In this document: positions 15,697 through 43,645 of the stretch, in pieces
Layout: the number at the start of each line of letters is the position of its first letter
Position numbering within the stretch: position 1 is the stretch's first letter
IMG/VR virus record: IMGVR_UViG_3300034779_000011
Coordinates: 1-53,704 of that record
Direction: 5' to 3' (one strand)
Source of the DNA: a virus
DNA length: 53,704 bases
Translations under genes and position numbers: made by a program
The notes under the pieces: generated by a model
Database searches by the model: none
What the model saw: the letters and a program-made list of their open reading frames with translations, nothing else
Told to the model about the DNA's origin: nothing

Positions 15697-15816
15697 TTGC
15701 GGAGGTGGACGCGACCCTGTAGTTTCTTTGCCCATGCAGTAGGCGCGCCCTGAGCGCACCCGACCCGGTGGGGGTCCGAGCCGATGTTTCGGCTTGGGCC
15801 CCCGCTTCGTTTTGCC
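15697..15816 (+). promoter_or_regulatory. Late control element copy 1: promoter-like boxes plus leader hairpin
   Basis: Fills the gap between the terminase and the W-like gene. TTGCGG (15697-15702) and TAGTTT (15720-15725) are 17 bases apart inside the 9-mer TGTAGTTTC. A leader with GTAGG follows. Bases 15752-15816 then match 34343-34407 at all but two positions. That block contains a 13-bp stem GGGTCCGAGCCGA / TCGGCTTGGGCCC (two G-U-type pairs, loop TGTT) and a CGTTTTG run, as in an intrinsic terminator. A promoter followed at once by a terminator-like hairpin fits antitermination or attenuation control (inference). Confidence 0.65.
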
Positions 15817-15833
15817 CCCCTGCATCCTTCAAA

Positions 15834-16064
15834 GTGGCAACTCGCGAGGAAGCCCTGGCCGTCGCGGAAACTCAGCTCGCAGAAGTGCGGGCTGCGATCA
15901 GCCGCGTTCTCCACGGCGGACAGTCGCGCACGGTGAACGACCGCCAGCGGGTAGAGACCGAACTGCGCGACCTCCGCGCGTACGAGCGGGACCTGAAGGC
16001 GGAGATCGCGCGGCTGTCCGGCGGGAGTTCGGGGCTGCGGTTCTTCAAGGTGGTGCCGCAGTGA
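15834..16064 (+). CDS. gpW-like head-tail joining protein (76 aa)
   Basis: GTG start at 15834 gives a short helical protein: REEALAVAETQLAEVRAAIS, a Gly-rich turn with SRVLHGGQSRTVNDRQR, then a second helix and GLRFFKVVPQ. Length, two-helix plan and place between the GpA terminase and the portal match lambda W, which plugs the portal before tail joining. The open frame continues upstream to 15768, but that part is the control element. The stop overlaps the portal start (GTGA). Confidence 0.78.
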   Translation: MATREEALAVAETQLAEVRAAISRVLHGGQSRTVNDRQRVETELRDLRAYERDLKAEIARLSGGSSGLRFFKVVPQ

Positions 16065-17623
16065 ACCGCGCCGCGCCCACGCGCCGCACACTCGCGATCG
16101 CCGCACTGTCCGGCTACGCGGAGTCGCTGGGTCACCGGGGCGCGAGTCTCTCCGAGCGCGCGCTGCGCTCCTGGGAGACGGCGTCGGGTAGCGCCGACAG
16201 CCTCGCGCTGCGCGACCTGCCGACGCTGCGGGACCGCTCGGCGGACCTGGTCCGCAACGAGCCGCTGGCCGCGGGGGCGGTGCAGACGCAGGTCGACAGC
16301 GTCGTGGGGACCGGGCTGCGGCTTCGCGCCACCCCGCGCCGGGGGCCGCTGGGGCTCTCTCGCGTCGAGGCGGAGGCGTGGGCGGACGAGGTAGAGACGC
16401 TTTGGGACGCGGTGAAGAACCATCTCGACATCGAGCGCGTCTCCTCCTGGCGGCAGCTTCTGGAGATGACCTTCATCGGCACCGTGGTGCGCGGCGATCT
16501 CCTGACCATCCGGCGGTACCGCAAGCGCGCGGGCGACGCACTGGGACTCAAGCTGCAGCAGGTGGAGCCGGGCCGGATCTCGAACCCGCGAGGGGCGTGG
16601 GATACGGACTCGCTGCGCGCGGGTGTGGAGAAGGACGCCGACGGTGCGGCGGTGGCCTACCACGTGGCGGACCGCCACCCGAACGACTGCCTGGCACGGC
16701 GCGCCGGCCCGACGACGTGGACGCGCGTGCCGGCGTTCGGACCCCAGAGCGGCGAGCCGCTGGCGCTCCTTCACCTGCGCCGGCGCGACCTGGGGCAGAC
16801 CCGGGGGACGCCCCTCTTCGCCCCGGTGATCGCGCTGTTCCGCCGCTTCGGGATCTTCAACGACGCGTACGTGGAGGCCTGCATCGTCAACACCATGCTG
16901 GCCGTCCTCATCACCACGCCGGACGACGGCTTCACCGACCCGATGTCGCTCACGGCCGAGAGCGCGGACGCGGCGGCAGCGGGTGAGATCGCCGAAGACG
17001 AAGTGAAGCTGGGCTCCGGCACCATCGCCACGCTTCCCCACGGAAGCTCCGCCACCATCGTAGACCCCAAGCGCCCGAACGACGCGTACGGCGCGTTCGT
17101 AGACACGATCCTGATGCAGGTGGGGGCGGCGCTGGGGCTGCCGTTCGAGGTGCTCACGCGGCGGTTCCAGTCGAGCTACTCCGCCGCGCGCGCGGCGCTC
17201 CTGGAGGCGTGGCGGACCTTCTATGGCTGGCGCGAGTGGCTGTCCGAATCGCTCTGCGCGCCGGTCTACGGATGGGTGGTCGCGGAAGCGGTCTCGACGG
17301 GACTGCTGGAAGCCCCGGGGTTCTTCGACTCCCCGCTCACCCGCGCGGCGTGGCTCGCTCACGAGTGGATCGGCGACGCGCCGGGCCAGCTGGACGAGCT
17401 CAAGGAGGCCCGCGCGGCCGAGATACGGCTTTCGCTGGGGATCACCACGCTGCAGGAGGAGACGGCGTCGATGACCGGTGGCGACTGGAGCCGCAACCAC
17501 GAGCAGCGCGCGGAGGAAGTGCGCCGCCGCCGTGAGGACGGCCTGGAGGGGCCGTCCGCAGAGAGCCTCGCCGAGGCCGACGCCATGATCGAGCGCGCGA
17601 ATGCACAGGAGGCTGGGACATGA
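16061..17623 (+). CDS. Phage portal protein, lambda gpB-like
   Basis: Forms the dodecameric DNA channel at one capsid vertex. Family blocks: LRDRSADLVRNEPLAAGAVQ, VVGTGLRLRATP, then QVEPGRISNP, a RRRDLGQTRGTPLFAPVI segment and GLPFEVLTRRFQSSYSAARA, which is highly typical of lambda-type portals. 520 aa from the GTG at 16061 agrees with the family. It lies between W and the protease, as in lambda. Confidence 0.94.
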   Translation: MNRAAPTRRTLAIAALSGYAESLGHRGASLSERALRSWETASGSADSLALRDLPTLRDRSADLVRNEPLAAGAVQTQVDSVVGTGLRLRATPRRGPLGLSRVEAEAWADEVETLWDAVKNHLDIERVSSWRQLLEMTFIGTVVRGDLLTIRRYRKRAGDALGLKLQQVEPGRISNPRGAWDTDSLRAGVEKDADGAAVAYHVADRHPNDCLARRAGPTTWTRVPAFGPQSGEPLALLHLRRRDLGQTRGTPLFAPVIALFRRFGIFNDAYVEACIVNTMLAVLITTPDDGFTDPMSLTAESADAAAAGEIAEDEVKLGSGTIATLPHGSSATIVDPKRPNDAYGAFVDTILMQVGAALGLPFEVLTRRFQSSYSAARAALLEAWRTFYGWREWLSESLCAPVYGWVVAEAVSTGLLEAPGFFDSPLTRAAWLAHEWIGDAPGQLDELKEARAAEIRLSLGITTLQEETASMTGGDWSRNHEQRAEEVRRRREDGLEGPSAESLAEADAMIERANAQEAGT

Positions 17624-19008
17624 GCGGCCGCACGGTCCCGCGCCGCCTGGCCGCCGCCTTCATGGTGGCGCAGTGGGCGATGCAGCGCGAATGGCTGGAG
17701 GCGATGCGGCCCGTGGCCGAGCAGATCGGCGGGCGGGACCTGAGCGCGGCGCAGCTGCGCGAGGAGCTCCGCGCCGCGCTGGAGCCGTTCCGCAAGGACG
17801 CGGTGGCGGTCGAGTGGGGCCAGCCCGTCGACGGGGCGCCGCGCGCGAGCGTGCGGGGCGGCGTCGCGGTGCTCCGGATCGTCGGCCCGATGTTCCACTA
17901 CGCGGACGAGTTCACCGACGTTTGCGGCTGCACGGCGTACGACGCGCTTGCTCGCGATGTGGCGGCGGTGCGGGCCGCGTACCGCGCAGGTGTGGTGGGC
18001 GCGGCCGTGGGCTACTTCGACACGCCCGGCGGCGAGTTCGGCGGCTGCGGGGAGGCGGCGGACCTGGTCCGGTCCCTCGCGGCCGAGATGCCTACCGTGG
18101 CGTACGCGTCCGACCTGTGCTGCTCCGCCGGGTTCTGGCTCGCGAGCGCGTTCGGTGAGCGCGTGGGGGCGGACGCTTCCATGTGGGGCTCGCTGGGCGT
18201 GGTGAGCTCCTACGTCGACAGTTCCGAGCGAGACGCGAAGGCCGGGGTTCGCAGGTTCGAGATCGTCTCCTCGCAGAGCCCCGACAAGCGCGCCAACCCC
18301 GCAGAGGATGAAGGGCGCGCGCGGCACCAGGCGCTGGTGGACTCGCTGGCCGACGTCTTCATCGACCACGTCGCCCGCAACATGAACGTGCCGCGCGCCC
18401 GGGTGCTCTCGGACTTCGGCCGTGGGGGCGTCCTGGTCGGACAGCAGGCGGTCGCCGCGGGAATGATCGACCGGCTCGGCTCCTTCGAGGGGCTGATCGC
18501 GGAGCTTTCGGACAAGTACGGCCCCGGTTCCCGGGGCACGCCCGCCGCCGGCGGGTTCACCCTCTCCCAGGAGCGCACGATGCGCCAGGAGCCCATGTCC
18601 GGCAGCGAAGAGCAGCCGGGGCCCATCACCGCCGACTCGCTGCGCCAGGCCCACCCGCAGGCGGTGGCGGAGCTCGAGACGGCCGCCGCCGCGCGGGAGC
18701 GCGAGCGGATCCGCGCGGTTCTCGCCGAAGCGACCACCGAGGACGAGCGCGCCGCGGTGGCGCCGCTCATCGAGGACCCGCAGGCCACCGCCGGGGACGC
18801 GGCGCGCGCCATCCTCGCCGCCGCCCGCAAGGCAGGCTCGACGGCCGGTGCCAGGGCGAAGGCCTTCCACGACGCCGTGCGGGCGGACGAGGTCGCGCTG
18901 GACGCGCCCGCTCCCAACGCCGCCACCGCGGGGGCGTCCGCCACCGACGCCGCGCAGGTGCTGCAGATCCTGAACGCCGGCAAGCTGCCGGCGCCCTCGC
19001 CGAACTGA
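17620..19008 (+). CDS. S49 family capsid maturation protease (gpC-like) with C-terminal scaffold region
   Basis: Cleaves the scaffold and portal during head maturation. The SppA-like core runs from about residue 80 to 290: GVAVLRIVGPMFHYAD, YFDTPGGEFGG, then catalytic Ser169 in LCCSAGFWLAS and GSLGVVSSY. Lys223 in SPDKRAN is well placed as the general base, comparable to the Ser/Lys dyad of lambda gpC. Residues 320-462 are Ala/Glu-rich and helical, like an assembly scaffold, with an internal start at 18580. The ATGA overlap couples it to the portal. Confidence 0.92.
   Translation: MSGRTVPRRLAAAFMVAQWAMQREWLEAMRPVAEQIGGRDLSAAQLREELRAALEPFRKDAVAVEWGQPVDGAPRASVRGGVAVLRIVGPMFHYADEFTDVCGCTAYDALARDVAAVRAAYRAGVVGAAVGYFDTPGGEFGGCGEAADLVRSLAAEMPTVAYASDLCCSAGFWLASAFGERVGADASMWGSLGVVSSYVDSSERDAKAGVRRFEIVSSQSPDKRANPAEDEGRARHQALVDSLADVFIDHVARNMNVPRARVLSDFGRGGVLVGQQAVAAGMIDRLGSFEGLIAELSDKYGPGSRGTPAAGGFTLSQERTMRQEPMSGSEEQPGPITADSLRQAHPQAVAELETAAAARERERIRAVLAEATTEDERAAVAPLIEDPQATAGDAARAILAAARKAGSTAGARAKAFHDAVRADEVALDAPAPNAATAGASATDAAQVLQILNAGKLPAPSPN
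18580..19008 (+). CDS. Nested in-frame scaffold protein (Nu3-like)
   Basis: An internal ATG at codon 321 of the protease frame is preceded by AGGAG six bases upstream (18569-18573). Starting there gives a 142-aa, Ala/Glu/Arg-rich helical protein with no enzymatic part. In lambda the scaffold Nu3 is made in this way from the 3' end of C. The start is inferred from the ribosome-binding site and the lambda parallel. Confidence 0.6.
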   Translation: MRQEPMSGSEEQPGPITADSLRQAHPQAVAELETAAAARERERIRAVLAEATTEDERAAVAPLIEDPQATAGDAARAILAAARKAGSTAGARAKAFHDAVRADEVALDAPAPNAATAGASATDAAQVLQILNAGKLPAPSPN

Positions 19009-19010
19009 CG

Positions 19011-19027
19011 GGCGCGCAGCGCGCGCC
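19011..19027 (+). terminator. GC hairpin between protease and decoration genes
   Basis: GGCGCGC-AGC-GCGCGCC forms a perfect 7-bp stem directly after the protease stop, followed by GCTTCTTCCC without a long T-run. It may stabilise or partly terminate mRNA before the strongly expressed decoration and capsid genes. Confidence 0.4.
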
Positions 19028-19057
19028 GCTTCTTCCCACTTCGCGGAGAGACCAGCC

Positions 19058-19720
19058 GTGAGCTTCGACCTGAACCCCAAGTTCGCGACGGAGGGCACCT
19101 ACACGCCCGACAACCTGATCGCGGACGGCTGCCCCCACGCGGACACGGTGACCGTGAAGAGCGGTCAGAACGTCGTCCGCGGCACGGTGATGGGCAAGTG
19201 CACCAAGGACACCGTGGGTGTCGCAACCGCGGGCGCGAACACCGGCAACGGCACCGCGTCGGCCGTGACGCTGGGCGCCAAGGCGCAGGCGGGCACCTAC
19301 ACGCTGCGCTGCGTGACGGCGGCGAGCAACGCCGGCACCTTCGCGGTGTTCGCCCCCAACGGCGAGCGCCTGGCGGACCTGACGGTGGGCGTCGCCTACA
19401 CCGGCGGCCACATCAACCTCACGATCTCCGACGGCGCCACCGACTTCGTGGTGGGCGACACCTTCACGGTCGCCGTCTCCGGCTCCGGCAAGTGGATCAA
19501 GTCTCTGGCAGCGGCGGTGGACGGCTCCCAGGACGGGACTGGCATCCTGGCGCACGACTGCGACGCCTCGGCCGGCGACAAGCTCGCGCCGATCTACACC
19601 GGCGGGCCGGCCGAGATCAACCAGCGCGCGCTCACCTTCGGGACCGGCCACACGGCCGGGACGGTTAAGGACACGCTGGCGGCGCGCGGACTCTACCTGC
19701 GCAGCAGCGTCAAGGCCTGA
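19058..19720 (+). CDS. Head decoration protein (gpD-like) with inserted beta domain
   Basis: Capsid-stabilising surface protein. The N-terminus (TPDNLIADGCPHADTVTVKS, then RGTVMGKCT) and C-terminus (GILAHDCDASAGDKLAPIYT with a final FGTGHTAGTVKDTLAARGLY block) match phage decoration proteins. Between them (about residues 70-150) sits an extra beta-sandwich-like module, AGTYTLRCVTAASNAGTF to FVVGDTFTVAVSG, seen in many decoration proteins and making this one longer than lambda D. It is placed between protease and capsid genes as expected. The GTG start at 19058 follows GGAGAGACC. Confidence 0.85.
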   Translation: MSFDLNPKFATEGTYTPDNLIADGCPHADTVTVKSGQNVVRGTVMGKCTKDTVGVATAGANTGNGTASAVTLGAKAQAGTYTLRCVTAASNAGTFAVFAPNGERLADLTVGVAYTGGHINLTISDGATDFVVGDTFTVAVSGSGKWIKSLAAAVDGSQDGTGILAHDCDASAGDKLAPIYTGGPAEINQRALTFGTGHTAGTVKDTLAARGLYLRSSVKA

Positions 19721-19766
19721 CGCCCGCCTCCACTCACGACGACCACCAACAGGAAAGGTCCGACCC

Positions 19767-20825
19767 ATGGCCGACACGTACACCACCCGGGTGCTGATCG
19801 GGGTGGTCGAGAGCCGCGAAGGCGGCAAGCTCCAGACGTTCTTCCGCAATTTCTTCCCCTTCCGCGTGCAGAGCGACCGGGAGGAGATCCTCTTCGACGT
19901 GGTGGACAAGAAGAAGCGCCTGGCGCCCTTCGTCTCGCCGCTGGTCAAGGGCAAGATCATGGAGGCGTGGGGCTACGTGACCCGCGTCTTCAAGCCCGCG
20001 TACCTGAAGCCGAAGGGGGTCGTGCGGCCCACCGACGCGATCAAGCGCCTCGCGGGCGAGAAGCTGAACGGCGAGATGAGCATGGCGGAGCGCCGGAACA
20101 TCCACATCCGGAACCACCTGTTCGAGCAGGACGACGCCTGCGACAACCGCGAGGAGGTGATGTGCGCGGAGGCGCTGCGGCTCGGGCAAGTCACCGTTTC
20201 GGGAGACGGCTACCCCACCCAAGTGATCAGCTTCGGGCGCAACTCCGCGCACCGGATCGTCCTCTCCGGCGCCGACTTGTGGAGCGCGTCGACCGCCACG
20301 CCCAACGACGACCTGGAGGAGTGGGCGGAGCTGGTGCGCGACAACGGCGACGGCGCGGTGGTCACCGACTGGATCATGGGGACGCGCGCCTTCAAGGCGT
20401 ACAAGAACTGGCTCAAGGACAACGAGCCGGACCTGCTCAAGATCCTGCTCAACGCCCAGAACCGGGGCCAGACCACCTCGCTGCAGATGGGCCCGCAGGC
20501 GGCGCGCAAGATCGTCAACCAGGGAACGGTCGGTGAGTTCCAGTTCTGGACGTACAGCGACACCTACCAGGACGAGGACGGCGTCACGCAGCAGGTGTTC
20601 CCGAAGGAGGAGGTGCTGGGCGTCTCCATGGACGTGGAGGGCACCATCTGCTACGGCGCCATCATGGACGCCGACGCCGGGGAGAGCGGGCTCGCGGTGA
20701 TGGAGCGCTTCCCGAAGAACTGGAAGGAGGCTGACCCGTCGGCAGAGTACGTCATGACGCAGTCGGCCCCGCTCGCGGTGCCGCTGCGTCCCAACGCCAC
20801 CGTGAGCGCCGTGGTGCTGGCGTAA
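19767..20825 (+). CDS. Major capsid protein, lambda gpE family
   Basis: Shell-forming HK97-fold protein. Characteristic blocks: FFRNFFPFRVQSDREEILFD, VSPLVKGKIMEAWGYVTR, the YLKPKGVVRPTDA segment, DGYPTQVISFGR, and VMERFPKNWKEADPSAEYVM with TQSAPLAVPLRPNA at the end. 352 aa fits the family. ATG preceded by AGGAAAGG. Confidence 0.95.
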   Translation: MADTYTTRVLIGVVESREGGKLQTFFRNFFPFRVQSDREEILFDVVDKKKRLAPFVSPLVKGKIMEAWGYVTRVFKPAYLKPKGVVRPTDAIKRLAGEKLNGEMSMAERRNIHIRNHLFEQDDACDNREEVMCAEALRLGQVTVSGDGYPTQVISFGRNSAHRIVLSGADLWSASTATPNDDLEEWAELVRDNGDGAVVTDWIMGTRAFKAYKNWLKDNEPDLLKILLNAQNRGQTTSLQMGPQAARKIVNQGTVGEFQFWTYSDTYQDEDGVTQQVFPKEEVLGVSMDVEGTICYGAIMDADAGESGLAVMERFPKNWKEADPSAEYVMTQSAPLAVPLRPNATVSAVVLA

Positions 20826-20860
20826 CCCCCCCGGCCTCGCGCGGAGGAGTCGAAGAACCC

Positions 20861-20881
20861 GGGCGGGGCCGTACCCCGCCC
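20861..20881 (+). terminator. Strong GC hairpin after the capsid gene
   Basis: GGGCGGGG-CCGTA-CCCCGCCC is a perfect 8-bp stem 35 bases after the capsid stop, followed by CTCTCC. Without a T-run it may act as a partial terminator or as an mRNA 3' stabiliser that raises capsid expression over downstream genes. Confidence 0.5.
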
Positions 20882-20922
20882 CTCTCCAAACGATCAACCT
20901 CTCACCACTACAGGTGATCCCG

Positions 20923-21348
20923 ATGGCGGACGACGTGAAGATGGTGAACGTGATCCCGCTCGTGCAGGTGCGCTACACGCCGCCCGGCGGCAGCCGCGGC
21001 ACCTACCTGCCGGGCACGAAGGAGAAGCCCGCCGAGGCCTTCCCGATGGAGGAGGGCGAGGCGCTCAGGCTGGCCCGGATGAAGCCGCCCGCCGTGGAGA
21101 TCGTGCCGTCGGCCACGTCGGCGGACCAGCCGCAGCACCCGGCGGCGACCGTCCCGCCGACGCGCGCGGAGCTGGAGCAGGGGGCGAAGGCGCTCGGGAT
21201 CGACCTCGGCTCCATCGTCGGCACGGGCAGGAACGGCGCGCTGAAGAACGCCGACATCGCCGCCGCCATCGCCGCGCGGCGCCACGAGCTGGAGGCGGAC
21301 GTGGACGACGATCCGGGCGGGCGCATCCCCGGCCTGGTGACCGAGTAG
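20923..21348 (+). CDS. Head protein with C-terminal E3-binding-like motif (lambda FI position)
   Basis: ATG at 20923 follows ACAGGTG; an in-frame GTG at 20914 is possible. The N-terminal part is beta-rich (VNVIPLVQVRYTPPGGSRG). The C-terminal ~40 residues (LGIDLGSIVGTGRNGALKNA then DIAAAIAARR) look like the small peripheral-subunit-binding/SAP-like helical fold. It occupies the position of lambda FI, a DNA-packaging accessory. Function inferred from position. Confidence 0.55.
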   Translation: MADDVKMVNVIPLVQVRYTPPGGSRGTYLPGTKEKPAEAFPMEEGEALRLARMKPPAVEIVPSATSADQPQHPAATVPPTRAELEQGAKALGIDLGSIVGTGRNGALKNADIAAAIAARRHELEADVDDDPGGRIPGLVTE

Positions 21349-21370
21349 TCCGCTCACCGCCGCCGCCCCC

Positions 21371-21898
21371 GTGTTCACCCCTCAGGAGGTGGAGACAGAT
21401 CTCCGGCTGACCGGAGGCAAGCCCGTGCTCTATGGGCACCGGCCGTTCACGGTGGACGGCGCCACCGACCGGGTACTCACCGCCGGCCACGGCTTCCCGG
21501 CGGGGCTGCGGCTGGAGTTCGTGGGCGGGGCGCCGGGCGGGCTGGCGACGGGCACCGGCTACTACGTGCTCGCCCCCAACCCGCAGGGGTTCCAGGTGGC
21601 CGCAACGGCGGGCGGCGCGGCCGTGGACCTCGTCGGCGCGGCCCCCGCCGGCAGCCAGGTGGCGCTCTCCACCTGGGGCCACTGGGACGTCGACCGGCAG
21701 GAAGACACCTTCGAAGGCGAGCGCGCGGTTCACGGGGAGCCGGCCGGGCTGGTGCGGGTGGCGACCGGGATGGTGTCACGGGTCCACCTGCGGGCGCGCG
21801 CCGCGCTCTTCTTCAACGGCGTGCGGTACGTCATCCTCGCCGCGACGCCGGTGGGAGACGGGGAGGAGACGGAGATCGTGGTGGGCAAGGGCAGCTAG
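21371..21898 (+). CDS. Head-tail connector-like protein (FII position) carrying an inserted beta module
   Basis: GTG start. The ends resemble FII-type joining proteins: a short N-terminus and a C-terminal ARAALFFNGVRYVILAATPV. Residues ~35-90 contain a separate module (GHGFPAGLRLEFVGGAPGGL, YYVLAPNPQGFQVAATAGG) that recurs in the tail-fibre gene at 36898-37500. The module probably decorates the virion; the connector assignment rests on gene order. Confidence 0.6.
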   Translation: MFTPQEVETDLRLTGGKPVLYGHRPFTVDGATDRVLTAGHGFPAGLRLEFVGGAPGGLATGTGYYVLAPNPQGFQVAATAGGAAVDLVGAAPAGSQVALSTWGHWDVDRQEDTFEGERAVHGEPAGLVRVATGMVSRVHLRARAALFFNGVRYVILAATPVGDGEETEIVVGKGS

Positions 21899-21922
21899 TT
21901 TCCCTGCGGAAACAACGACCCC

Positions 21923-22447
21923 GTGCAGATTCCAGCGAGCATCCTCGAACGCGTGCTGCAGGCGGCGGAGGGCCGCCTCGGCGAATCCTCCGCCACGACC
22001 CCGGCCGGGGTGACGTACGAGCGGCCGGCGGCGCTGGTGTGCCGCTCCCCGCTGGCGCCGGGGGAGCCGGGAGAGCTGCCCCGCATGGCGGTGGTCCTGG
22101 CGCAGCCGCCGGAGAAGCTCGGGGAGACAGGGGAGCTCAGGGCGCCGGGGTCGGTGACAAGCGAGGTGTTCGCCGCCGTGGTCTGCCAGGTCGAGGGCAG
22201 CAACGAGAGCGGGGCGCCTGGGCTCGACACGTTGCTGGACCCTCTCCGCTCATGGGCGATCATCGCCTTGCTCTACGACTGGACCGAGCCCCGGCCGTTC
22301 GGGGGGCTGGTGGAGCGGGCGGAGTACGTCGGTGCCCGGTGGGACCGCGACCAGGCGGGCGTGCCCTTCGGCGAGGTGATGCTTTTCTTCCGCTTCCAGC
22401 TCGCGACCGATGCGGCGGACCCGACGACACTCTCACCCGTGGCATGA
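21923..22447 (+). CDS. Tail-terminator-like protein (gpU/Z position)
   Basis: GTG start. 174 aa with a helical N-terminus (PASILERVLQAAEGRLG) and alternating beta strands (RMAVVLAQPPEK, FAAVVCQVEG), ending in VMLFFRFQLATDAADPTTL. It lies between the connector and tail-tube genes, where lambda-type phages encode Z and U, and the C-terminal strand resembles tail-terminator relatives. Position is the main evidence. Confidence 0.55.
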   Translation: MQIPASILERVLQAAEGRLGESSATTPAGVTYERPAALVCRSPLAPGEPGELPRMAVVLAQPPEKLGETGELRAPGSVTSEVFAAVVCQVEGSNESGAPGLDTLLDPLRSWAIIALLYDWTEPRPFGGLVERAEYVGARWDRDQAGVPFGEVMLFFRFQLATDAADPTTLSPVA

Positions 22448-22457
22448 GGGCCCACTG

Positions 22458-22628
22458 ATGCTGATCGAGCTCCTGTCGGAAGTCATGAACCGCTTCGGAC
22501 GCTTCCCGGTGACAAACCCTCCCACGCGCGTAGACTGGCCGGCTGACGTCGCCCAGCCTCTGCTGGACGTCAAGGCTGCGCGGCCGGTCGAGCCACCGCG
22601 CCGCCGGGCGAAAGGGGCTCAGCCGTGA
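22458..22628 (+). CDS. Small hypothetical tail-region protein (56 aa)
   Basis: ATG at 22458 is taken as the start; the longer open frame upstream overlaps the previous gene. Helical N-terminus MLIELLSEVMNRFGRFPV, then a basic Pro-rich end. It couples to the next gene by GTGA. No family recognised. Confidence 0.45.
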   Translation: MLIELLSEVMNRFGRFPVTNPPTRVDWPADVAQPLLDVKAARPVEPPRRRAKGAQP

Positions 22629-23700: not shown

Positions 23701-23736
23701 CACACCCCTCCCTCCCTCAGCACCGGATGGCAACCG

Positions 23737-24168: not shown

Positions 24169-24183
24169 ACGGAGGGACGAACG

Positions 24184-24615: not shown

Positions 24616-24902
24616 CCACCGAGCTCGGCGGGATGACCGTGGCGGAGCTCAAGCGGCGCATCACCGCAGAGGAAGCCGCCGACTGGGAGGAATGGTTCCT
24701 GGAGGAGCGGCGGCGGGTGGAGGAGGCGGCGGGGGGCGGGGCTGGCGGAGCCGGGGCGCCGTCGCTCGCGGACGTGGAGGATGGTTACGCCGAGCTGGAC
24801 GCGCTGCTCAAGGCGGGCGGCCTCACCGAGGAGCAGCACCGCGAGGCGTGTGAGAACCTGAAGCGCAAGCGGGAGGTCTGGGCGGCAGCCGGCGTTAGCT
24901 GA
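24184..24902 (+). CDS. Tail assembly chaperone, -1 frameshift fusion (gpGT-like)
   Basis: Slipping back one base at GGGAAAA (24573-24579) joins the first 132 codons to a second frame ending at 24902, giving about 239 aa. The added part (PDHWLYFRIATELGGMTVAE, LKRRITAEEAADWEEWFLEE) resembles gpT extensions. The second frame lacks a good start of its own at this point, which supports frameshift expression. Confidence 0.75.
24573..24579 (+). promoter_or_regulatory. Programmed -1 ribosomal frameshift site GGGAAAA
   Basis: Heptamer in phase G GGA AAA with the G frame, next to lambda's known GGGAAAG site in type. It sits about 35 bases before the zero-frame stop at 24613-24615, at the correct place for a G/GT ratio switch. 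Confidence 0.8.
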
Positions 24903-25068
24903 AGAGCACCAGCAGAACCAGAACTGCCAGCACGACCCCAGCGGCAATCGTTCCCGCCGTGACCGGCTTTGCTGGGGGCGGGCCCTGGGTGCAACCGCAG
25001 GTCGGGCAGGTTGGCGCCGCAGAGTCGATCAGGGAGCGGCACTCGCGACACGGAACATCGTGAGTCAT
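24895..25068 (-). CDS. Minus-strand zinc-ribbon plus membrane-anchor miniprotein (57 aa)
   Basis: Antisense to the late operon. The N-terminus has two CxxC-type pairs (CRECRSLIDSAAPTCPTC), a zinc ribbon. The C-terminus is one transmembrane helix (IAAGVVLAVLVLLVLFS) ending in the membrane. The start lacks a clear ribosome-binding site, so it may depend on translation of the upstream 33-aa gene. It overlaps the end of the tail chaperone gene by 8 bases on the opposite strand. Probably a lysogenic-conversion gene (inference). Confidence 0.6.
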   Translation of the reverse strand: MTHDVPCRECRSLIDSAAPTCPTCGCTQGPPPAKPVTAGTIAAGVVLAVLVLLVLFS

Positions 25069-25105
25069 CGGGAGGTGGATACGGCGGGGGCGGAAGGGGT
25101 GGATT

Positions 25106-25207
25106 TCACGTACCTCGTCTTCGTGAAACTAATAGCAGGCCAATTCCGACCCCAAGCCCGATCAGAAGTCCTACGGCGAGCGCGAGTAGGAGTAGGGCGG
25201 TGATCAT
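25106..25207 (-). CDS. Minus-strand single-helix membrane miniprotein (33 aa)
   Basis: ATG preceded by CGGAGGA at good spacing (25216-25222, read on the minus strand). The product is almost all one hydrophobic helix (TALLLLALAVGLLIGLGVG) followed by a basic tail SRRRGT. Together with the 57-aa gene 37 bases downstream it forms a two-gene antisense unit between tail chaperone and tape measure genes. Too small for family assignment. Confidence 0.55.
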   Translation of the reverse strand: MITALLLLALAVGLLIGLGVGIGLLLVSRRRGT

Positions 25208-25244
25208 CTGCACTATCCTCCGGGCTTTTGAGTGTGCGGTTCTT

Positions 25245-25274
25245 ACGGTAACGAGCGGGTCCGGCGTTCGTCAA
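25245..25274 (-). promoter_or_regulatory. Candidate promoter of the minus-strand mini-operon
   Basis: On the minus strand, TTGACG (25269-25274) and TACCGT (25245-25250) are 18 bases apart, about 40 bases before the 33-aa start. The -35 is good and the -10 weak. The surrounding bases are less GC-rich than the flanking genes. Confidence 0.5.
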
Positions 25275-25296
25275 ACCCTTCGGCTGATCTCCGCTG

Positions 25297-27420: not shown

Positions 27421-27440
27421 AGCACAAGGAGGAGCCAGCG

Positions 27441-27650
27441 ATGCTTCGCGATTTACTGAGGCGGCTGTTTCGCCGCCGCCCCGCCCCGCCGCCGCCGCAG
27501 GCGACAGCGACCGTGCGATTCGACGATGTGCCGTGGGACGCTGACCGCGTGGCCCGGTTCCTTGAGGAACACCGGGACGCGGTGGCGGCGGCGGTCGCGA
27601 AGTGTGCCCGCGCCGGCGGGCCCGAGCGCCCGCAACCCCCCACGTCCTGA
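27441..27650 (+). CDS. Small basic hypothetical protein (69 aa)
   Basis: ATG preceded by AAGGAGGAG. Begins with a very basic helix (LRDLLRRLFRRRP), then Pro-rich sequence and an amphipathic segment (VARFLEEHRDAVAAAVAK). It lies between tape measure and minor tail genes. Function unknown. Confidence 0.6.
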   Translation: MLRDLLRRLFRRRPAPPPPQATATVRFDDVPWDADRVARFLEEHRDAVAAAVAKCARAGGPERPQPPTS

Positions 27651-27656
27651 ACTGCC

Positions 27657-28295
27657 GTGCCCTCCTTCCCCCGCACCCTGCTCTCGCGCGAACAGTCGGC
27701 GCTGATCGACATGCCCGCCGGCTTTCTGTCGGTGGGGCACACCGGGGGCATCCAGGCCAGGACCGGCAACGCCGTGGGGCGCACCTGGAGCGAGGAGTGG
27801 GGGCCGCTCAAGCGGGGCCGGCCTGAGGTGGAGGCGCTGCTGGTCTTCATCGAGGAGGCCGCCGCGCGCCTCGTGGTCTTCGACATCGCACACCTGCTGA
27901 CGCCGGGGTCGGGCCTGGCGAAGAACGGCGCGGCGGCGGTCGCTTCGGCCACGATCCTGGACGCGGGCCCCGGGAGCAATCAGGGCGCCACGATCACGCT
28001 TTCCGGACTGGGCCCCGCCGTCACGAACGCAATCCGCGCCGGCGATGCGCTGCGGATCGCGGGGCTCAACCCACTCTTCCGCTTCACCTCGGACCAGAGC
28101 AGCAACGGCGGCGGCGGCGCTACGGCCACGATCTCGCCGGCCCTGCCGGTCGGCTACACGGTGCCCAACGGCACCGTGGTCACGCTCTCCAACTGCACCC
28201 TGCGGGCGATGATCGCGGGCAAGCCGGAGATTCCCGCCGCGGGGCCGGACGGCTGGTACATGGGGCTGCGGGTCGCGTTCCGGGAGGCGCCGTGA
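27657..28295 (+). CDS. Minor tail protein (gpM-like position)
   Basis: GTG start. 212 aa, beta-rich: RTWSEEWGPLKRGRPEVEAL, an inserted beta module (SATILDAGPGSNQGATITLS to LPVGYTVPNG), then MIAGKPEIPAAGPDGWYMGL at the end. The order tape measure, M, L, K, J in lambda supports M. The frame overlaps the next gene (GTGA). Confidence 0.65.
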   Translation: MPSFPRTLLSREQSALIDMPAGFLSVGHTGGIQARTGNAVGRTWSEEWGPLKRGRPEVEALLVFIEEAAARLVVFDIAHLLTPGSGLAKNGAAAVASATILDAGPGSNQGATITLSGLGPAVTNAIRAGDALRIAGLNPLFRFTSDQSSNGGGGATATISPALPVGYTVPNGTVVTLSNCTLRAMIAGKPEIPAAGPDGWYMGLRVAFREAP

Positions 28296-28966
28296 CGCGG
28301 GCACTCACCTCCGGCATGGTGGCGGCCGTCTCCGCGGAGCGCAGCACGGCCGTCCACCTGATCCAGGTCTCGCACTCCGGCGGCACGCTCCGGCTCGCGA
28401 CCGCGCCGCAGGACCTGCCGTGGAACGGTTTCACGTGGGACGCCGTGGGCGGGCTGCTGGAGCTCGGCGCGGCGGAGGAGAGCCCTGATGGGGAGAGCCA
28501 GAGCATGGAGCTCACCCTCTCCGGCGTGGACACGGCGGTCATGTCGGCGCTGCTGGCGAACCAGGTGCGTGGCTTCGCGGCGTCGGTGTGGCTCGCGCAC
28601 GTGACCGAGGCCACCGGCGCGATCGTGGCCGACCCGCTCCTCCTTTGGACAGGCTACCAGAACGAGGCGTGGGAGATCGGTGAGGAGCCGGGCGGGGACG
28701 GGGCGCCCGGCACCTGCACGGTGCGCACGCGCGTCGTCTCGCGCTCCGCGCGGCTCGCGCATCCGCAGCCGGTGCGCGCCAACGTCACCAGCCACAACGA
28801 GCTTCTGGCCCGGGCCGGGCAGGCGGCCGGGGACACCTTCTTCCAGAACGTGCCGACCATCGAGGGGAAGCCGATCTACTGGGGCACCAACGCGCCGAGC
28901 GGACCCTCGCGCGGCGGGCAGACGCCGGGGACGCCGTCGGACACCGGACTGAGGCCATCGACATGA
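28292..28966 (+). CDS. Minor tail protein (gpL-like, DUF2163-type)
   Basis: Starts TRALTSGMVAAVSAERSTAV, HLIQVSHSGGTLRLATAPQD, then WDAVGGLLELGAAEESPDGE, the usual form of phage proteins that sit between the tape measure and the NlpC-like protein. It lacks the iron-sulfur cysteines of lambda gpL. The C-terminus is Gly/Pro/Ser-rich (PSGPSRGGQTPGTPS). Probably at the tail tip. Confidence 0.68.
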   Translation: MTRALTSGMVAAVSAERSTAVHLIQVSHSGGTLRLATAPQDLPWNGFTWDAVGGLLELGAAEESPDGESQSMELTLSGVDTAVMSALLANQVRGFAASVWLAHVTEATGAIVADPLLLWTGYQNEAWEIGEEPGGDGAPGTCTVRTRVVSRSARLAHPQPVRANVTSHNELLARAGQAAGDTFFQNVPTIEGKPIYWGTNAPSGPSRGGQTPGTPSDTGLRPST

Positions 28967-29331
28967 GCATCGACAACGCCGTTCAACCCGCACTCAATCA
29001 CGACCTGTGGATTCGGGTCTTGGCTGGCGAGCCACATGAGGTCATCCTGGCGGATGCGGTGTTCGACTCTGCCGACGAGTCGTTTCATGCCAGGGCTGCG
29101 CTTCTGCTGTACGATCATCCGAAGGGTTTCACCTGGGATCACGTAACGGCGCTTCTCCAGTCGTCGGTTATCTACCGCGTTGGCGATGCTATGGAGGTGG
29201 ACGAAGTGGCGACGGCGCGAGTCCGCCAATGCGCGGGCCTGATCGCAGCCATGCTTCCGCCCCGCGACCTCCTGGATTGGTTCCCGGCGCCGACGCGCGA
29301 CCGCGCTCCCACACGGGAGCCCGGCCAGTGA
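28963..29331 (+). CDS. Hypothetical protein between L- and K-like genes (122 aa)
   Basis: ATGA overlap with the upstream gene. Mixed alpha/beta with IRVLAGEPHEVILADAVFDS and a KGFTWDHVTALL segment, then a Pro/Arg-rich tail. Codon use is less GC-biased than neighbouring tail genes, which may mean separate origin. It resembles the 33792 gene in style (small, helical). No family. Confidence 0.5.
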   Translation: MSIDNAVQPALNHDLWIRVLAGEPHEVILADAVFDSADESFHARAALLLYDHPKGFTWDHVTALLQSSVIYRVGDAMEVDEVATARVRQCAGLIAAMLPPRDLLDWFPAPTRDRAPTREPGQ

Positions 29332-29753
29332 AGCGCGCCGAGAACTGGGACGTGCGCCTGCACCACTGGGCCGCCGGCCGCGTGGGCCGGCGCTTCGCAT
29401 GGGGCCGCACCGACTGCGCCTCGCTGGTGCGCCAGGCGGCACGGGTGATGTACGGCCAGGAGGTGTTCGCCTCGGTGCCGCGCTGGGCGAGCGCCCGGCA
29501 GGCCGTGGAGGCCATGCGCGTGAGCGGCGGAGTCCGCCCGAGCCTCCAGCGCCTCCAGGCCTGGTGCCTGCCGCTCGGGTTCGCGCAGAGCGGGGACGTC
29601 GCCGTAGGCCCGGAGCAGGGCGGCGAGGCGCAGACGGCCGTGGTCGTGGACGGCCGGGCGCTGGTCTCGACGCGGGCCGAGGGGGTGCGTCTGGTTCCCC
29701 TGTCGGAGCTGAGCGCGGGGGTGCTGCTCTGGAGGCTGCCGAGCCATGAGTAG
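29328..29753 (+). CDS. NlpC/P60-like tail tip protein (gpK-like)
   Basis: GTG start in a GTGA overlap. RRFAWGRTDCASLVRQAARV contains the catalytic-type Cys of NlpC/P60 or the related DUF6950 family, and EAQTAVVVDGRAL could hold the later acidic/His part, although a clear catalytic His is not obvious. In lambda K this domain aids cell-wall passage of the tail. 141 aa is short, so it is a single-domain version. Confidence 0.7.
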   Translation: MKRAENWDVRLHHWAAGRVGRRFAWGRTDCASLVRQAARVMYGQEVFASVPRWASARQAVEAMRVSGGVRPSLQRLQAWCLPLGFAQSGDVAVGPEQGGEAQTAVVVDGRALVSTRAEGVRLVPLSELSAGVLLWRLPSHE

Positions 29754-32580
29754 CCCGCTCGGGAAGATCGTCGCCGGGGCGGCATTGATCGGGGTGCAGT
29801 TCATCCCCGGGGTGGGGCAGATGGTGTCGGCGGCGGCGTTCTCGCTGGGCGCGAGCTTCGTCGCCTCCGGGGTCGGCGGGCTCCTCGCGGGACGCCTTCG
29901 CGGCGGGCAGGAAGGCTTCCAGACCAGCGCCACCAGCGCCCAGGCGGACGTGCCGGTCATCTACGGCACCGTGAAGATGGCCCCCAACATCGTGGATATC
30001 CGGGTCGATCCCAACAACAACAAGATCCTCGCGATCGTCGGCGTGCTAGGGGTGGGCTCGGATGACGGCAACGGCATCCAGGCCATCGACGAGATCTACC
30101 TGGACGACAAGCTGGCCGTCTCGGCCTCCGGCGTGGTGCAGAGCGCCTTCGTCGGCAACAGCACGATCGACGGGGCGACCGCGCGGGTGCGGGTCGCGAA
30201 GTACATGGGCACGTTCGGCCAGAGCGTGGACGCAGAAATGTCGGCCCGCTTCTCCTCCACCGGCTGGCCCTCGTCCTCCCGCGGGCGAGGCATGGCATAC
30301 GTGCGGCTGCTCCTTACCTACGACAACGAGAAGTTTCCCGGGGGAATCCCGCGCATCGCCTGCGTGGTCCGGGGGCGGCGCGTCTTCGACCCGCGCGACT
30401 CCACGTGGAAGCACGCGGAGAACCCCGCGCTCTGCGTGCGTGACTACCTGCTGTCCACGCAGGTGGGGCTCGGGGCATCGACGGCCGAGATCGACGAAGC
30501 GTCCTTCGCCGCCGCCGCCAACTACTGCGACGAGACCCTCTCCGTGCCCGGCGGGGTGCAGAAGCGCTTCACCTGCAACGCGATCCTCGCCACCGAGCGC
30601 GCGCGCGGCCAGAACCTGAACGACCTGCTCTCCTCCTGCCGGGGGCAGCTGGTCTATCAGGGCGGCGTCTACCGGCTCTTCATCCGGCGGCCCACCACGC
30701 CCACGGCGTTCGCGCTCACCGAGGACAACATCGTCGGCAACTGGAGCTTCCGCCGGGCGGGGCTCAAGGAGACGGCGAACACGGTGCGCGTGGCGTACGT
30801 CGACTCCGGCAAGAACTACGTGGTGGAGACGGCCACGTGGCCCGAACCGGGCGCGGCGAATCCCTATCGCACCGCCGATAACGGCTTCGCCAACGAGGTG
30901 GACGTCGACCTGCCCTGCACCACCAACCGCTACGCCGCGCTGCAGATCGCCGAGGTGCTGCTCAAGGAGAGCCGGAACGATCTCTTCGTGAGCCTGACGG
31001 CCAAGGAGGCGGCGCTGCAGCTGCAGGTGGGCGACGTGGTGCCGGTCACCCACTCCACCCCCGGCTGGACCGCCAAGCCGTTCTGGGTGCTGGGGCTCTC
31101 CATCCGGCCGGACCACCTGGTGGAAGTGGTGCTCCAGGCCTACAGCGCCGACACGTACACGCTCTCGACTCCCACCACGACGGCAACGCTGCCGGGCGGG
31201 AGCCTGCCGGATCCGCAGAGCGTGGCGGCGCCGTCGGGCCTGGTGCTGACGGCCGACGCCACAACGGCGCTCGAGGTGCAGGACGGCATCCGCGTGCCGC
31301 GGATCCGGGTGCAGTGGACCGCCTCGCCGGAGCCGCACCTGCTGCGCTACGAGATTGAGATCAAGCCGACGGCTGGAGGGGTGTTCAACCTCTGCAACTA
31401 CGCGGGGCCGCAGGACACCGAGGCGTTCGTCCTCTCCGAGGTGAGCGCGGGAGTGGGCTACGATGTACGCGTGCGGGCCGTCTCGATGGTGTACGTCGCC
31501 TCCAACTGGATCAGCGGCTCCGTCACGCCCAGCACGACGGTCAGCAACTACGGCGGCAACATCAACAACGTCCCGGCGCCTACGGTGCAGGGGGAGGCGC
31601 GGACGGGCCGTCGGGGCGTGGGCAACGGGGCGCGTAACGTCCTGGTCAACGGCAGCGCGCAGCGCGACGCGGAGGGCCTCACCGAACTCACCGCCGTCAA
31701 TTCACTCACCATCGACACGGCAACGTTCTACCGTGGGGACCGCAGCTTCAAACTCTCGCATGCGTCCGCGGCGGACGAAGCGTGGGCCTTCCCGCAGTAC
31801 GCGGTGGCGGACGGCGATTACGTGACGGTGCGCGGCAGGATCAAGACCACGGCCCTACCGCCCGGCGAGGCTGGCGAGGGCGCGGCGCTCAACACGGATA
31901 TCGTCTCGGGCGTGTCCTCCCTCACGGTGCTGGAGACACGCAGCGCCGGGGTGTTCTCGTTCGTCGCGGACGTAGGCTTGCCTGCCGATGGCGTTGCCCG
32001 AGACTTCACCGAGGTTTGGGCGTACTTCCAGGTGAACGGCGCCGGTGTGCTGCGGCTCGCCATTCACCTGGGCTACAACGGCGCCCAGTCGGGGAGTGCC
32101 TGGTTCGATGATATCGAGGTGATCGTCGAGAGCCGGTACGCGACCGAGGGGGCCACCCGCTCCAAGGCGGGTCTCGCCGCGGGGACGGGACAGCTCGCGA
32201 GCCCGGCCAAGGGGCTGCCGTACTTCCAGGGCAACCGCGGCAGCGCGATCAAGGGCTACAGCGGGAACCTGATCTCGACCACCAACAACGGCGACGGCAC
32301 CGCCACCGTCTCGCTCGCCGCGCACACGCACCAGTTCGGCCAGATGGACGTCAACTATAACTCCGGAACCGTGACGCTCTCCGGCGTCGCGGCGCTGCAG
32401 GAGTGGTTCGTCTACACCGACGACCTGAACCTGGCCGGAGGCGCCGCCACCTACCTCGCCACGCAGTCGGAAGAGACGGCGAAGGCGGGCAACGGGCGGG
32501 TGTTCGTGGGCATCGCCGGGGTTCCCGCGTCCGGGGCGACGACTCCCGGCACCCCCGGCGGCGGAACCACGCTTCGCTGA
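29746..32580 (+). CDS. Tail hub / host-specificity protein (gpJ-like, 944 aa)
   Basis: Receptor-side tail tip. The N-terminal ~60 residues are hydrophobic and Gly-rich (VAGAALIGVQFIPGVGQMVS), as in gpI-like segments fused to J. Residues ~65-480 are the hub (VPVIYGTVKMAPNIVDIRVD; FNAILATERARG-type repeats of the family; DVVPVTHSTPGW). A fibronectin-III-like segment lies near 505-605. A jelly-roll or carbohydrate-binding-like segment spans about 640-790 (RNVLVNGSAQRDAEGLTEL). The C-terminus is a beta-rich fibre end. Shorter than lambda J (1132 aa). Confidence 0.9.
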   Translation: MSSPLGKIVAGAALIGVQFIPGVGQMVSAAAFSLGASFVASGVGGLLAGRLRGGQEGFQTSATSAQADVPVIYGTVKMAPNIVDIRVDPNNNKILAIVGVLGVGSDDGNGIQAIDEIYLDDKLAVSASGVVQSAFVGNSTIDGATARVRVAKYMGTFGQSVDAEMSARFSSTGWPSSSRGRGMAYVRLLLTYDNEKFPGGIPRIACVVRGRRVFDPRDSTWKHAENPALCVRDYLLSTQVGLGASTAEIDEASFAAAANYCDETLSVPGGVQKRFTCNAILATERARGQNLNDLLSSCRGQLVYQGGVYRLFIRRPTTPTAFALTEDNIVGNWSFRRAGLKETANTVRVAYVDSGKNYVVETATWPEPGAANPYRTADNGFANEVDVDLPCTTNRYAALQIAEVLLKESRNDLFVSLTAKEAALQLQVGDVVPVTHSTPGWTAKPFWVLGLSIRPDHLVEVVLQAYSADTYTLSTPTTTATLPGGSLPDPQSVAAPSGLVLTADATTALEVQDGIRVPRIRVQWTASPEPHLLRYEIEIKPTAGGVFNLCNYAGPQDTEAFVLSEVSAGVGYDVRVRAVSMVYVASNWISGSVTPSTTVSNYGGNINNVPAPTVQGEARTGRRGVGNGARNVLVNGSAQRDAEGLTELTAVNSLTIDTATFYRGDRSFKLSHASAADEAWAFPQYAVADGDYVTVRGRIKTTALPPGEAGEGAALNTDIVSGVSSLTVLETRSAGVFSFVADVGLPADGVARDFTEVWAYFQVNGAGVLRLAIHLGYNGAQSGSAWFDDIEVIVESRYATEGATRSKAGLAAGTGQLASPAKGLPYFQGNRGSAIKGYSGNLISTTNNGDGTATVSLAAHTHQFGQMDVNYNSGTVTLSGVAALQEWFVYTDDLNLAGGAATYLATQSEETAKAGNGRVFVGIAGVPASGATTPGTPGGGTTLR

Positions 32581-32600
32581 CCCTTCTACCTCATCCACCG

Positions 32601-33020
32601 ATGCCCGCACCCACCCGGCTCCCGCGCGCGCAGGGACAGCACGCCGACGACCACCGCTTCCGGCTGAGCAGCGGGGAAGAGTGCGTCGTGAAACTCTTCC
32701 TCGCCGGCGAGCCCACCGACACGGCGTGGCCGATCCTCGTGGTGGCGGAGGTGGCGGAGTCGGACGGGAGCCTGGTGCAGCTCCCCGGCAACACGCACAC
32801 GTTGCCCGTGGAAATGGTCCACCCGGACCGGATCGCGCACGGGCAGGTGAGTCTCAGCCAGGAGAAGGAGCGGCTGGCCGCGGCGGCGGCCGAGCGGATG
32901 GAGCGCTACCTCCCGGCCGCGCGCCAGGCGCGCCAGATGCGCCGGCTGGCCGCGCCCGCGCCCGTCGTCCGTCCATCTCCGCAGTCGTGGCGTCTTCCCC
33001 GACTGGAGGAGGCACGGTGA
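32601..33020 (+). CDS. Hypothetical tail-region protein (139 aa)
   Basis: ATG at 32601 after the J stop; an open frame extends upstream but overlaps J. Beta-rich first half (FRLSSGEECVVKLFLAGEPT; ILVVAEVAESDG) and a helical, basic C-terminal half that may form a coiled coil (ERLAAAAAERMERYLPAARQ). Function unknown. Confidence 0.55.
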   Translation: MPAPTRLPRAQGQHADDHRFRLSSGEECVVKLFLAGEPTDTAWPILVVAEVAESDGSLVQLPGNTHTLPVEMVHPDRIAHGQVSLSQEKERLAAAAAERMERYLPAARQARQMRRLAAPAPVVRPSPQSWRLPRLEEAR

Positions 33021-33730
33021 GGATCGACGTCACAGCCGACGCCCGCCAGGTCGAGCGGGCGTTCGGCTCCCTGGCCCGCGATCAGATGCCCTTCGCCACC
33101 AGCCGGGCGATCAACGCGACGGCGTTCGACGTGGACGAGGCCGCCACCCGGCAGCTGGCGGGCAGCTTCACCGTGCGGCGGCGCGACTTCGCGTCCCGCG
33201 CGTTCAAGCCCGGCCCCGCGGCCACGAAGACCCGGCTCCATCGCGACGTGAAGCTGGAGCCGCCGGGCGGCGCGCAGCGCGCGGACATCTTCGCCAAGTT
33301 CGAGCACGGCGGCGTCAAGAAGCCGCAGGGCACTCGCCTGGCGATCCCGGAGTCTGGGGTCCGGAGGACCAGGGCCGGCATTGTGGCGCCCTCGCTTCGG
33401 CCCCGGGCGCTGGACTTCAAGGCGCAGTCGCCCAACGTGCTGATCGGCAAGAACCGCACGGTGATGATCCGGACCGCGGGCGGCAAGGGGATCATCCTCC
33501 AGCGCACCGGCCGGGGGCGGAAGGGCAGGCGGGGCAGGCGGGTGCTGGTTTCGGACCTGCGCACGCGCAAGGTGAGGGACGTGAGCCTGAAGGTGCTCTA
33601 CGGACTCGCGCCGCGCGCGCGGATCGACGGCCGCCTGGAGTTCTTCCCGACCGCGGAGAAGACCGTGCAGACGGTGTTTCCGGAGCACCTGAAGCGAGAG
33701 CTGATGAAGGCGGTTGTGACCAGGCGGTGA
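33017..33730 (+). CDS. Phage tail-associated protein, basic (237 aa; possibly gpZ-like)
   Basis: GTG start in GTGA overlap. N-terminus VRIDVTADARQVERAFGSLA, then ATSRAINATAFDVDEAATRQ and RRRDFASRAFKPGPAATKTR, resembling phage proteins annotated as minor tail or gpZ-like. A very basic Arg/Lys stretch (RTGRGRKGRRGRRV) follows the middle. The assignment rests on this weak similarity and position. Confidence 0.45.
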   Translation: MRIDVTADARQVERAFGSLARDQMPFATSRAINATAFDVDEAATRQLAGSFTVRRRDFASRAFKPGPAATKTRLHRDVKLEPPGGAQRADIFAKFEHGGVKKPQGTRLAIPESGVRRTRAGIVAPSLRPRALDFKAQSPNVLIGKNRTVMIRTAGGKGIILQRTGRGRKGRRGRRVLVSDLRTRKVRDVSLKVLYGLAPRARIDGRLEFFPTAEKTVQTVFPEHLKRELMKAVVTRR

Positions 33731-33791
33731 GATGGTTAGCTTTCGGGCGAAGAGGCGTGGGTGTGTCGGGCCGCGGCGGAGAAGCTTCCAC

Positions 33792-34199
33792 ATGCGAATC
33801 CTTCTGAGATCCCTCGAAGACTTCCGCGAAGCCTGCCGGACGCACCAGGCGATGCATGGCGTCGCCCAAGGCGTCCTTCGACGCCAACACAAACGCTGGG
33901 ACCGGGCTGAAGGCATTGCACGGTCGCTCTCACTGAGTCCGGAAGAGGTGTACGCCGGACTTGAGGCGGCGCGCGACGATGAGGCGCTCGTTCGGCGCGC
34001 GTCGAACCTGACGATGCGCCTGCCGATCCCCGGCGGCGTTCCGGCTGCGGTCTCTCTCTGCCTTCTGGACGCCGATGACTCGCGTATCTGCGAAGCCGCA
34101 GCGACCTGGTTCGCGTTAGGCGGGCACCAGAAGCAGTGCATAGGTCTGACGCCGTTCGTACGCGCCACCAGGGGGGGCTCGGCAAAAAAGGGGGGGTGA
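33792..34199 (+). CDS. Hypothetical helical protein (135 aa)
   Basis: ATG at 33792 is preceded by GGAGAAGC; a longer frame begins at 33732. The product is helical (ILLRSLEDFREACRTHQAMH; GIARSLSLSPEEVYAGLEAA), with DADDSRICEAAATWF near the end and a basic Lys/Gly tail. Less GC-biased than the tail genes. It closes the tail block just before late control element 2. Confidence 0.5.
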   Translation: MRILLRSLEDFREACRTHQAMHGVAQGVLRRQHKRWDRAEGIARSLSLSPEEVYAGLEAARDDEALVRRASNLTMRLPIPGGVPAAVSLCLLDADDSRICEAAATWFALGGHQKQCIGLTPFVRATRGGSAKKGG

Positions 34200-34285
34200 C
34201 GGGCGCGCAGAGAGAGATTGTGCTGACCGGGTCGCCGGACGCCGCCGCCCCGGGAAGCGGTTGGCGCCCGCCCCCACGATTTCTC

Positions 34286-34407
34286 TTGCCAGCCGCGACG
34301 AACACGTGTAGTTTCCACCACATTCGTGTAGACGGGCGCCCAGAGCGCACCCGACCCGGTGGGGGTCCGAGCCGATGTTTCGGCTTGGGCCCCTGTTTCG
34401 TTTTGCC
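34286..34407 (+). promoter_or_regulatory. Late control element copy 2: promoter-like boxes plus leader hairpin
   Basis: TTGCCA (34286-34291) and TAGTTT (34309-34314) are 17 bases apart inside TGTAGTTTC, just as in copy 1. Bases 34343-34407 match 15752-15816 at 63 of 65 positions. They contain the same 13-bp stem with loop TGTT and the trailing CGTTTTG. The element occupies most of the 254-base gap between 34199 and 34454 and faces the membrane, zinc-ribbon and tail-fibre genes. Confidence 0.65.
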
Positions 34408-35716: not shown

Positions 35717-35817
35717 GCGACGGCTGGTGCTGTCACCCGAGAAACGGGGCCGGTCCGCACGAGGGCAGCACGTGGCGCTGCCCGGAGTGTCACCGGCTGA
35801 TCCCGATTCTGCGCTGA
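35713..35817 (+). CDS. Zinc-ribbon miniprotein (34 aa)
   Basis: GTG start overlapping the previous stop. Sequence pattern WCCHPRNGAG to WRCPECHRL provides four Cys/His ligands. Shorter than most annotated genes but in a clear translational overlap, and consistent with neighbouring metal-binding genes. Confidence 0.5.
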   Translation: MSDGWCCHPRNGAGPHEGSTWRCPECHRLIPILR

Positions 35818-43629: not shown

Positions 43630-43645
43630 TGGGCTCCCCCATAGA

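Follow-up and report, generated by a model that had tools for sequence, protein, structure and literature searches.

Why does a prophage carry two copies of a promoter-like sequence followed at once by a strong hairpin, one copy ahead of each of two late gene blocks, and could each copy be a late promoter that is closed by an early terminator until a phage factor opens it? The two copies, elements A and B, lie 18,589 nt apart in a 53,704-nt stretch of DNA, analysed over its full length and called the window here, which belongs to a prophage of a GC-rich bacterium and has a lambda-like layout. Genes for an O-like replication protein, a DnaC-like protein, an ECF-like sigma factor, the small terminase subunit (terS) and the large one (terL) are followed by element A. 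Past this element come the genes for a gpW-like adaptor, which begins 20 nt after the tail of hairpin A, the portal, an S49 protease, a decoration protein, the major capsid protein and the tail. The tail genes end at a J-like gene, after which element B, an ORF with an apparent membrane segment and the fibre genes follow (Table 1). An initial annotation of this DNA had placed copy A ahead of the W/portal genes and copy B ahead of membrane and fibre genes, and both placements agree with the profile match of the first gene past A and, by eye, with the apparent membrane segment of the first ORF past B and the fibre genes later on. Its description of the two sites as the main gaps of the late operon is roughly right (143 and 254 nt), but the intervals 35717-35884 and, if really empty, 24616-25296 are equally large. 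Elsewhere, 47126-49264 encodes a 712-aa early-region protein with a ParB-like N-terminal domain.

Table 1 Coordinates of the two elements and of the genes and predicted sites around them (positions in the window)
Feature	Position	Strand	Remarks
ECF-like phage sigma gene	11689..12381	+	region 2 and region 4; Sigma70_r2 E 2e-10; TIGR02937 above cut-off
terL	13705-15690
-35 box, copy A (TTGCGG)	15697..15702	+	window rank 1, score 12.0, host-trained promoter model
-10 box, copy A (TAGTTT, within TGTAGTTTC)	15720..15725	+	host-trained model
GTAG, copy A	15739-15742	+	possible -10-like pause signal (weak); offset from -10 box as in B
72-nt conserved block, copy A	15745..15816	+	65-nt block plus 7 nt upstream; 69/72, 96% identity with B
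Small leader-RNA hairpin A (GCGC-CCTGA-GCGC)	15745..15757	+	from folding
65-nt block, copy A	15752-15816	+	63/65 identical with B
Terminator-like hairpin A	15767..15806	+	18 pairs, loop TGTT; then TCGTTTT at 15807-15813
gpW-like head-tail adaptor gene, first gene past A	15834..16064	+	GTG start; phrog_118, E 1.2e-10
J-like gene	29746-32580
Third predicted host-type promoter (TTGTGA-N17-TAGCTT)	33714..33742	+	score 10.4; precedes ORF without relatives
-35 box, copy B (TTGCCA)	34286..34291	+	window rank 2, score 11.1, host-trained promoter model
-10 box, copy B (TAGTTT, within TGTAGTTTC)	34309..34314	+	host-trained model
GTAG, copy B	34328-34331	+	possible -10-like pause signal (weak); offset from -10 box as in A
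72-nt conserved block, copy B	34336..34407	+	65-nt block plus 7 nt upstream; 69/72, 96% identity with A
Small leader-RNA hairpin B (GCGC-CCAGA-GCGC)	34336..34348	+	from folding
65-nt block, copy B	34343-34407	+	63/65 identical with A
Terminator-like hairpin B	34358..34397	+	18 pairs, loop TGTT; then TCGTTTT at 34398-34404
First ORF past B	34454..34819	+	ATG start; hydrophobic N-terminal segment by eye; no family
Repressor-like gene	43192-43713	-
Integrase gene	50121-51311		two tRNA genes adjoin

Comparison of the two copies revealed that the -35 and -10 boxes are separated by 17 nt in both and are followed by a leader of 26 nt (A) or 28 nt (B) and then by the conserved block; boxes, spacing, leaders and the 65-nt block had all been annotated correctly to the base. 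A search of the window for CTCTTGC-N17-TGTAGTTTC with up to three mismatches returned elements A and B as the sole matches (0.13 expected), and CTTGC-N17-TGTAGTTTC with zero mismatches found the same two sites as the sole matches in their own 7.5-Mb genome. The boxes are identical between the copies at 16/16 positions. The promoter spacers agree at 5/17 positions, which is chance level (longest common run GACG, P 0.09), and most of the leader likewise differs at chance level. Because the spacer identity is only at chance, the boxes form one conserved unit and the block another, and the pair is not, judged from this pattern, one young duplication alike in every part. The GTAG found at a common offset in both leaders has a run-length P of about 0.08 and lacks the T at the sixth position.

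To characterize the boxes we trained a two-box promoter model on 522 host regions that precede predicted genes rather than mapped starts; these were drawn from 1.05 Mb of non-prophage host sequence, and the window was left out of training. The host regions contain TTGAC and, exactly 17 nt on, a T, A and T-T signal, and the trained model, TTG[A/C]nn-N17-TAnnTT, gives as a by-product a housekeeping promoter consensus that was derived for this host from sequence. When the model was run on both strands of the window, A and B were the best two sites, and only 0.4% and 1.0% of the host upstream regions, counted by the best site per region, reached the scores of A and B, respectively. The boxes look like strong host vegetative/housekeeping promoters and so have, by sequence, the host-type promoter expected of a Q-dependent pR'/tR' region. 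The model also predicted a divergent pair of promoters at 43658(+) and 43713(-), in the region 43658-43774 beside the repressor-like HTH gene on the minus strand and an early operon on the plus strand, which is a probable lysis-lysogeny switch; since the pair sits where a temperate phage should have one, we counted it in favour of reading the boxes as host promoters. The third predicted promoter stands between the tail genes and element B with an ORF that has no relatives (33714-34199), a moron-like arrangement, and no hairpin was found within 110 nt after it. As this ORF with its own predicted promoter adjoins element B, hairpin B might also end the transcript of the ORF.

Folding of the blocks revealed in each a small leader-RNA hairpin and a large terminator-like one, the latter starting about 35 nt past the estimated transcription start. 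The TGTT loop of the initial annotation was right and its 13-bp stem was too short, since the stem reaches 18 pairs when G-U pairs are included, hairpin B being richer in these than hairpin A; its T-run does form a terminator-like tail, but a short and split one, TCGTTTT. The minimum free energies of A and B were -46.2 and -39.3 kcal/mol on the plus strand (z against shuffles, -5.8 and -4.3) and -33.8 and -29.2 kcal/mol on the opposite strand (z, -1.5 and -0.8). The weaker folding of the opposite strand is due to the G-U pairs in the stem, and the plus-strand RNA is thus likely to be the functional form. The 72-nt blocks differ at three positions: two of the changes turn a G-C pair of the stem into G-U, and the third affects the small hairpin's loop. 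A pair of sequences does not suffice for an analysis of covariation. A conserved peptide encoded in the block was rejected, because the stem differences are not jointly silent in the frames read. Hairpins A and B were the top terminator-like sites of the 15.5-35.4 kb region and, in a separate scan, of the whole window. Host gene ends carry similar hairpins with short, interrupted T-tracts, and the two hairpins resemble these host intrinsic terminators; the T-tract being short and interrupted, termination may nevertheless be weak. By sequence and folding, each copy places an apparent intrinsic terminator soon after the start and ahead of late genes.

Searches for relatives of the block were made at several levels. 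An Rfam scan of the window gave nothing at the elements and found only two tRNAs. A host repeat occurring outside prophages, which the initial annotation had named as an outcome that would speak against its reading, was tested and did not occur: only two copies were found in the 7.5-Mb genome, both in the prophage, and an interspersed repeat of the host was rejected. Among 60 relatives and a 198-genome sample of the class the block was absent, and only short, partial matches turned up, in two genomes; the one of these that was inspected lacks the hairpin. A 19-mer match was likewise rejected as a homologue, the hairpin being absent. The exact block core was absent from IMG/VR and genome_contigs, and blastn with the block against phage and plasmid records gave no match. 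When 150 genomes of the order were scanned with a covariance model built from the block, all matches were terminator-like or weak; several of the best off-target ones look like ordinary terminators and other weak ones do not. Of 40 IMG/VR contigs with related terminases, none had a predicted promoter followed by a terminator after terL. No strong promoter-hairpin module was seen either in those prophage contigs of the order that carry a related terminase, and searches of viral or genome contigs with single proteins (sigma, terminase, capsid) found no relatives. Within the order, contig L009 (from genome G100, minus strand) carries the closest terminase relative, and a box-like match behind its terL was rejected as being at chance level and having no comparable hairpin. 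Downstream of terL this contig has small unknown ORFs and a kinase-like ORF (by eye) in place of portal genes, possibly a cargo or defence module. As the block was found nowhere else, comparison offers no support beyond A and B, and the element may be restricted to a group of phages with poor sampling.

The combination of promoter and hairpin was then compared with the host background. In the 1.05 Mb of host DNA a terminator-like hairpin lay within 110 nt behind 6 of 235 promoters scoring at least 8, and none of the 11 promoters scoring at least 11 was among the six. In the window this applied to 2 of 7 promoters, namely A and B. No promoter was predicted between the hairpin and the first gene in either copy (a distance of 20 nt in A and of about 50 nt in B), and therefore RNA for the late blocks, whether it starts at the boxes or upstream, should have to cross the hairpin. 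This apparently obligatory crossing is our main argument for regulated read-through, and it depends on the hairpin being an effective terminator despite its short T-tract.

We propose that each copy is a late promoter with an early terminator that is opened by a phage factor or by a change in the leader RNA, a reading to which we give about an even chance of being right. Host polymerase with the housekeeping sigma factor would start just past TAGTTT, transcribe a leader of some 75-80 nt and in most cases halt at the hairpin, so that the head/tail block behind A and the lysis/fibre block behind B would be poised yet silent in the lysogen. Upon induction, a phage product or an altered leader RNA would permit passage of the hairpin, and both blocks would come on together. 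Termination at the hairpin in vivo and regulated read-through are what we infer from the order of predicted signals; a point against is that a leaky hairpin could let transcription from upstream supply the block as well.

How the opening might occur is suggested by what the copies have in common. About 22 nt ahead of the hairpin differ between A and B by one loop base, and since it is this stretch and the rest of the transcribed block that the copies share, we think recognition of the block likelier than a Q-type site in the spacer; the conservation speaks for a factor that recognises the RNA, or a paused complex, on the block. In a more specific and tentative form, which we consider possible but doubtful, the 72-nt RNA module is common to both late promoters, and a single phage factor (perhaps the ECF-like sigma) recognises this RNA or the complex paused on it and antiterminates both blocks. 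No Q- or N-like protein was recognised among the genes scanned, Q proteins being diverse. Processive antitermination of phage late genes is known mainly from a few enterobacterial and Pseudomonas systems. If true, the proposal would describe an RNA-addressed, two-site counterpart of lambda Q beyond the hosts studied, and the two near-identical modules in a distant GC-rich lineage would serve as a natural internal replicate whose shared parts point to the target of the regulator.

The same hairpin could also be read as a structured 5' leader of plain constitutive or derepressed late promoters, acting on mRNA stability or RNase processing with no control of termination. An mRNA can indeed be stabilised or marked by a long stem close to its 5' end, and the T-tract is weak; however, the strong stem with its T-rich tail is terminator-like and agrees with the host terminators, and an unregulated strong late promoter would be costly for a prophage. 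We regard this explanation as unlikely.

Two small-RNA genes would have a similar outline: in each a strong promoter would drive a terminated RNA, about 80 nt long and active through its conserved 5' part, and the late genes would be fed otherwise or by leakage. A promoter and a terminator about 80 nt apart fit such a gene as well, the host has a locus of this kind (L055 18990), and the conserved stretch before the hairpin could act as a seed. Nevertheless, both copies aim at late genes 20-50 nt past the tail where no other promoter is predicted, and the 19-nt candidate seed has no further near match on either strand of the window, and this reading seems rather improbable to us. The host locus itself consists of a promoter, about 70 nt, a hairpin and a TTTCGTTTTT tail, and is possibly a small RNA or an attenuator.

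In the alternative offered by the initial annotation, the boxes are targets of the phage sigma factor; on such a reading the hairpins would serve only to stop stray transcripts arriving from upstream. The gene of this factor is placed directly before the terminase genes, at about the position of Q in lambda, and boxes identical at every position exceed what the host consensus demands. Boxes of an ECF sigma regulon should differ from the host housekeeping promoter, whereas these, with their 17-nt spacing, fit the host consensus best of all window sites; a phage sigma factor is therefore unnecessary to explain them, although it may use them too, and the alternative was not supported, the factor being ECF-like. 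A blocker downstream of a promoter would, moreover, block that promoter too, and we place little belief in this account, about as little as in small-RNA genes. In the region around the sigma gene (9333-11771), tandem PAPS-reductase-like genes (9390-10553 and 10529-11692) have a common 118-nt repeat of 98% identity, and the start of the second resembles that of the sigma gene (10547-10632 against 11686-11771; 86 nt, 77%); these similarities are, from sequence comparison, a rearrangement next to the sigma gene.

The proposed late promoter with an early terminator can be set beside several known systems. Gram-positive late regulators of the RinA/ArpU/Ltr type have their gene near terS and act at a promoter ahead of terS. 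The prophage likewise has a candidate regulator gene near terS at the entrance to the late genes, but its elements lie downstream of terL and carry hairpins. Two similar put RNAs, both about 70 nt long and with two stem-loops, occur in phage HK022, where putL directly follows its promoter (PMC9378689). Elements A and B are similar in number, length and possession of two stem-loops, but put sites precede early genes and the elements precede late genes, the stems differ, the two hairpins differ in size from the put stem-loops, and a T-tract follows the large hairpin here. That the 72-nt block is itself a put-like RNA, which binds its own polymerase and confers resistance to later terminators, is very improbable in our view despite the HK022 parallel of two similar blocks with a small and a large hairpin right behind promoters (PMC9378689), as stem I has only 4 bp, stem II is near-perfect with T's after it where put stems are bulged, and no other strong plus-strand terminator was seen within the late blocks as a target.

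Closer to a late promoter with an early terminator is PalpB-tB of P. aeruginosa, in which a promoter, an intrinsic terminator and lysis genes follow one another (PMC9371919), the same order as that of the signals predicted here. As described, PalpB-tB has one such promoter and the prophage has two; no AlpA homologue was recognised here, and the copies have nothing in common in the spacer that would correspond to the AlpA site. In both the AlpA (PMC9371919) and the 21Q (PMC6606751) systems, the factor binds between the -35 and -10 boxes, and sigma-dependent pausing is induced by a -10-like sequence. A binding element of the Q type between the boxes was expected to be common to both copies, but the spacers agree only at chance level, and this weakens the Q-type route. 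No Q homologue was found, and the conserved part is the transcribed block rather than the spacer. Unlike lambdoid pR'-tR', the prophage has two modules, sited past the terminase genes and before the lysis/fibre genes. The statement that this is a Q system is unsupported, as the one testable defining DNA site is not common to the copies. The analogy with lambda pR'/tR' drawn in the initial annotation does stand for the architecture, which as in lambda, 21 and 82 comprises a strong host-sigma promoter, an early terminator-like hairpin, late genes with no other predicted promoter before them, and a candidate regulator gene upstream; by this analogy, that the two elements work like pR'/tR' is the best reading.
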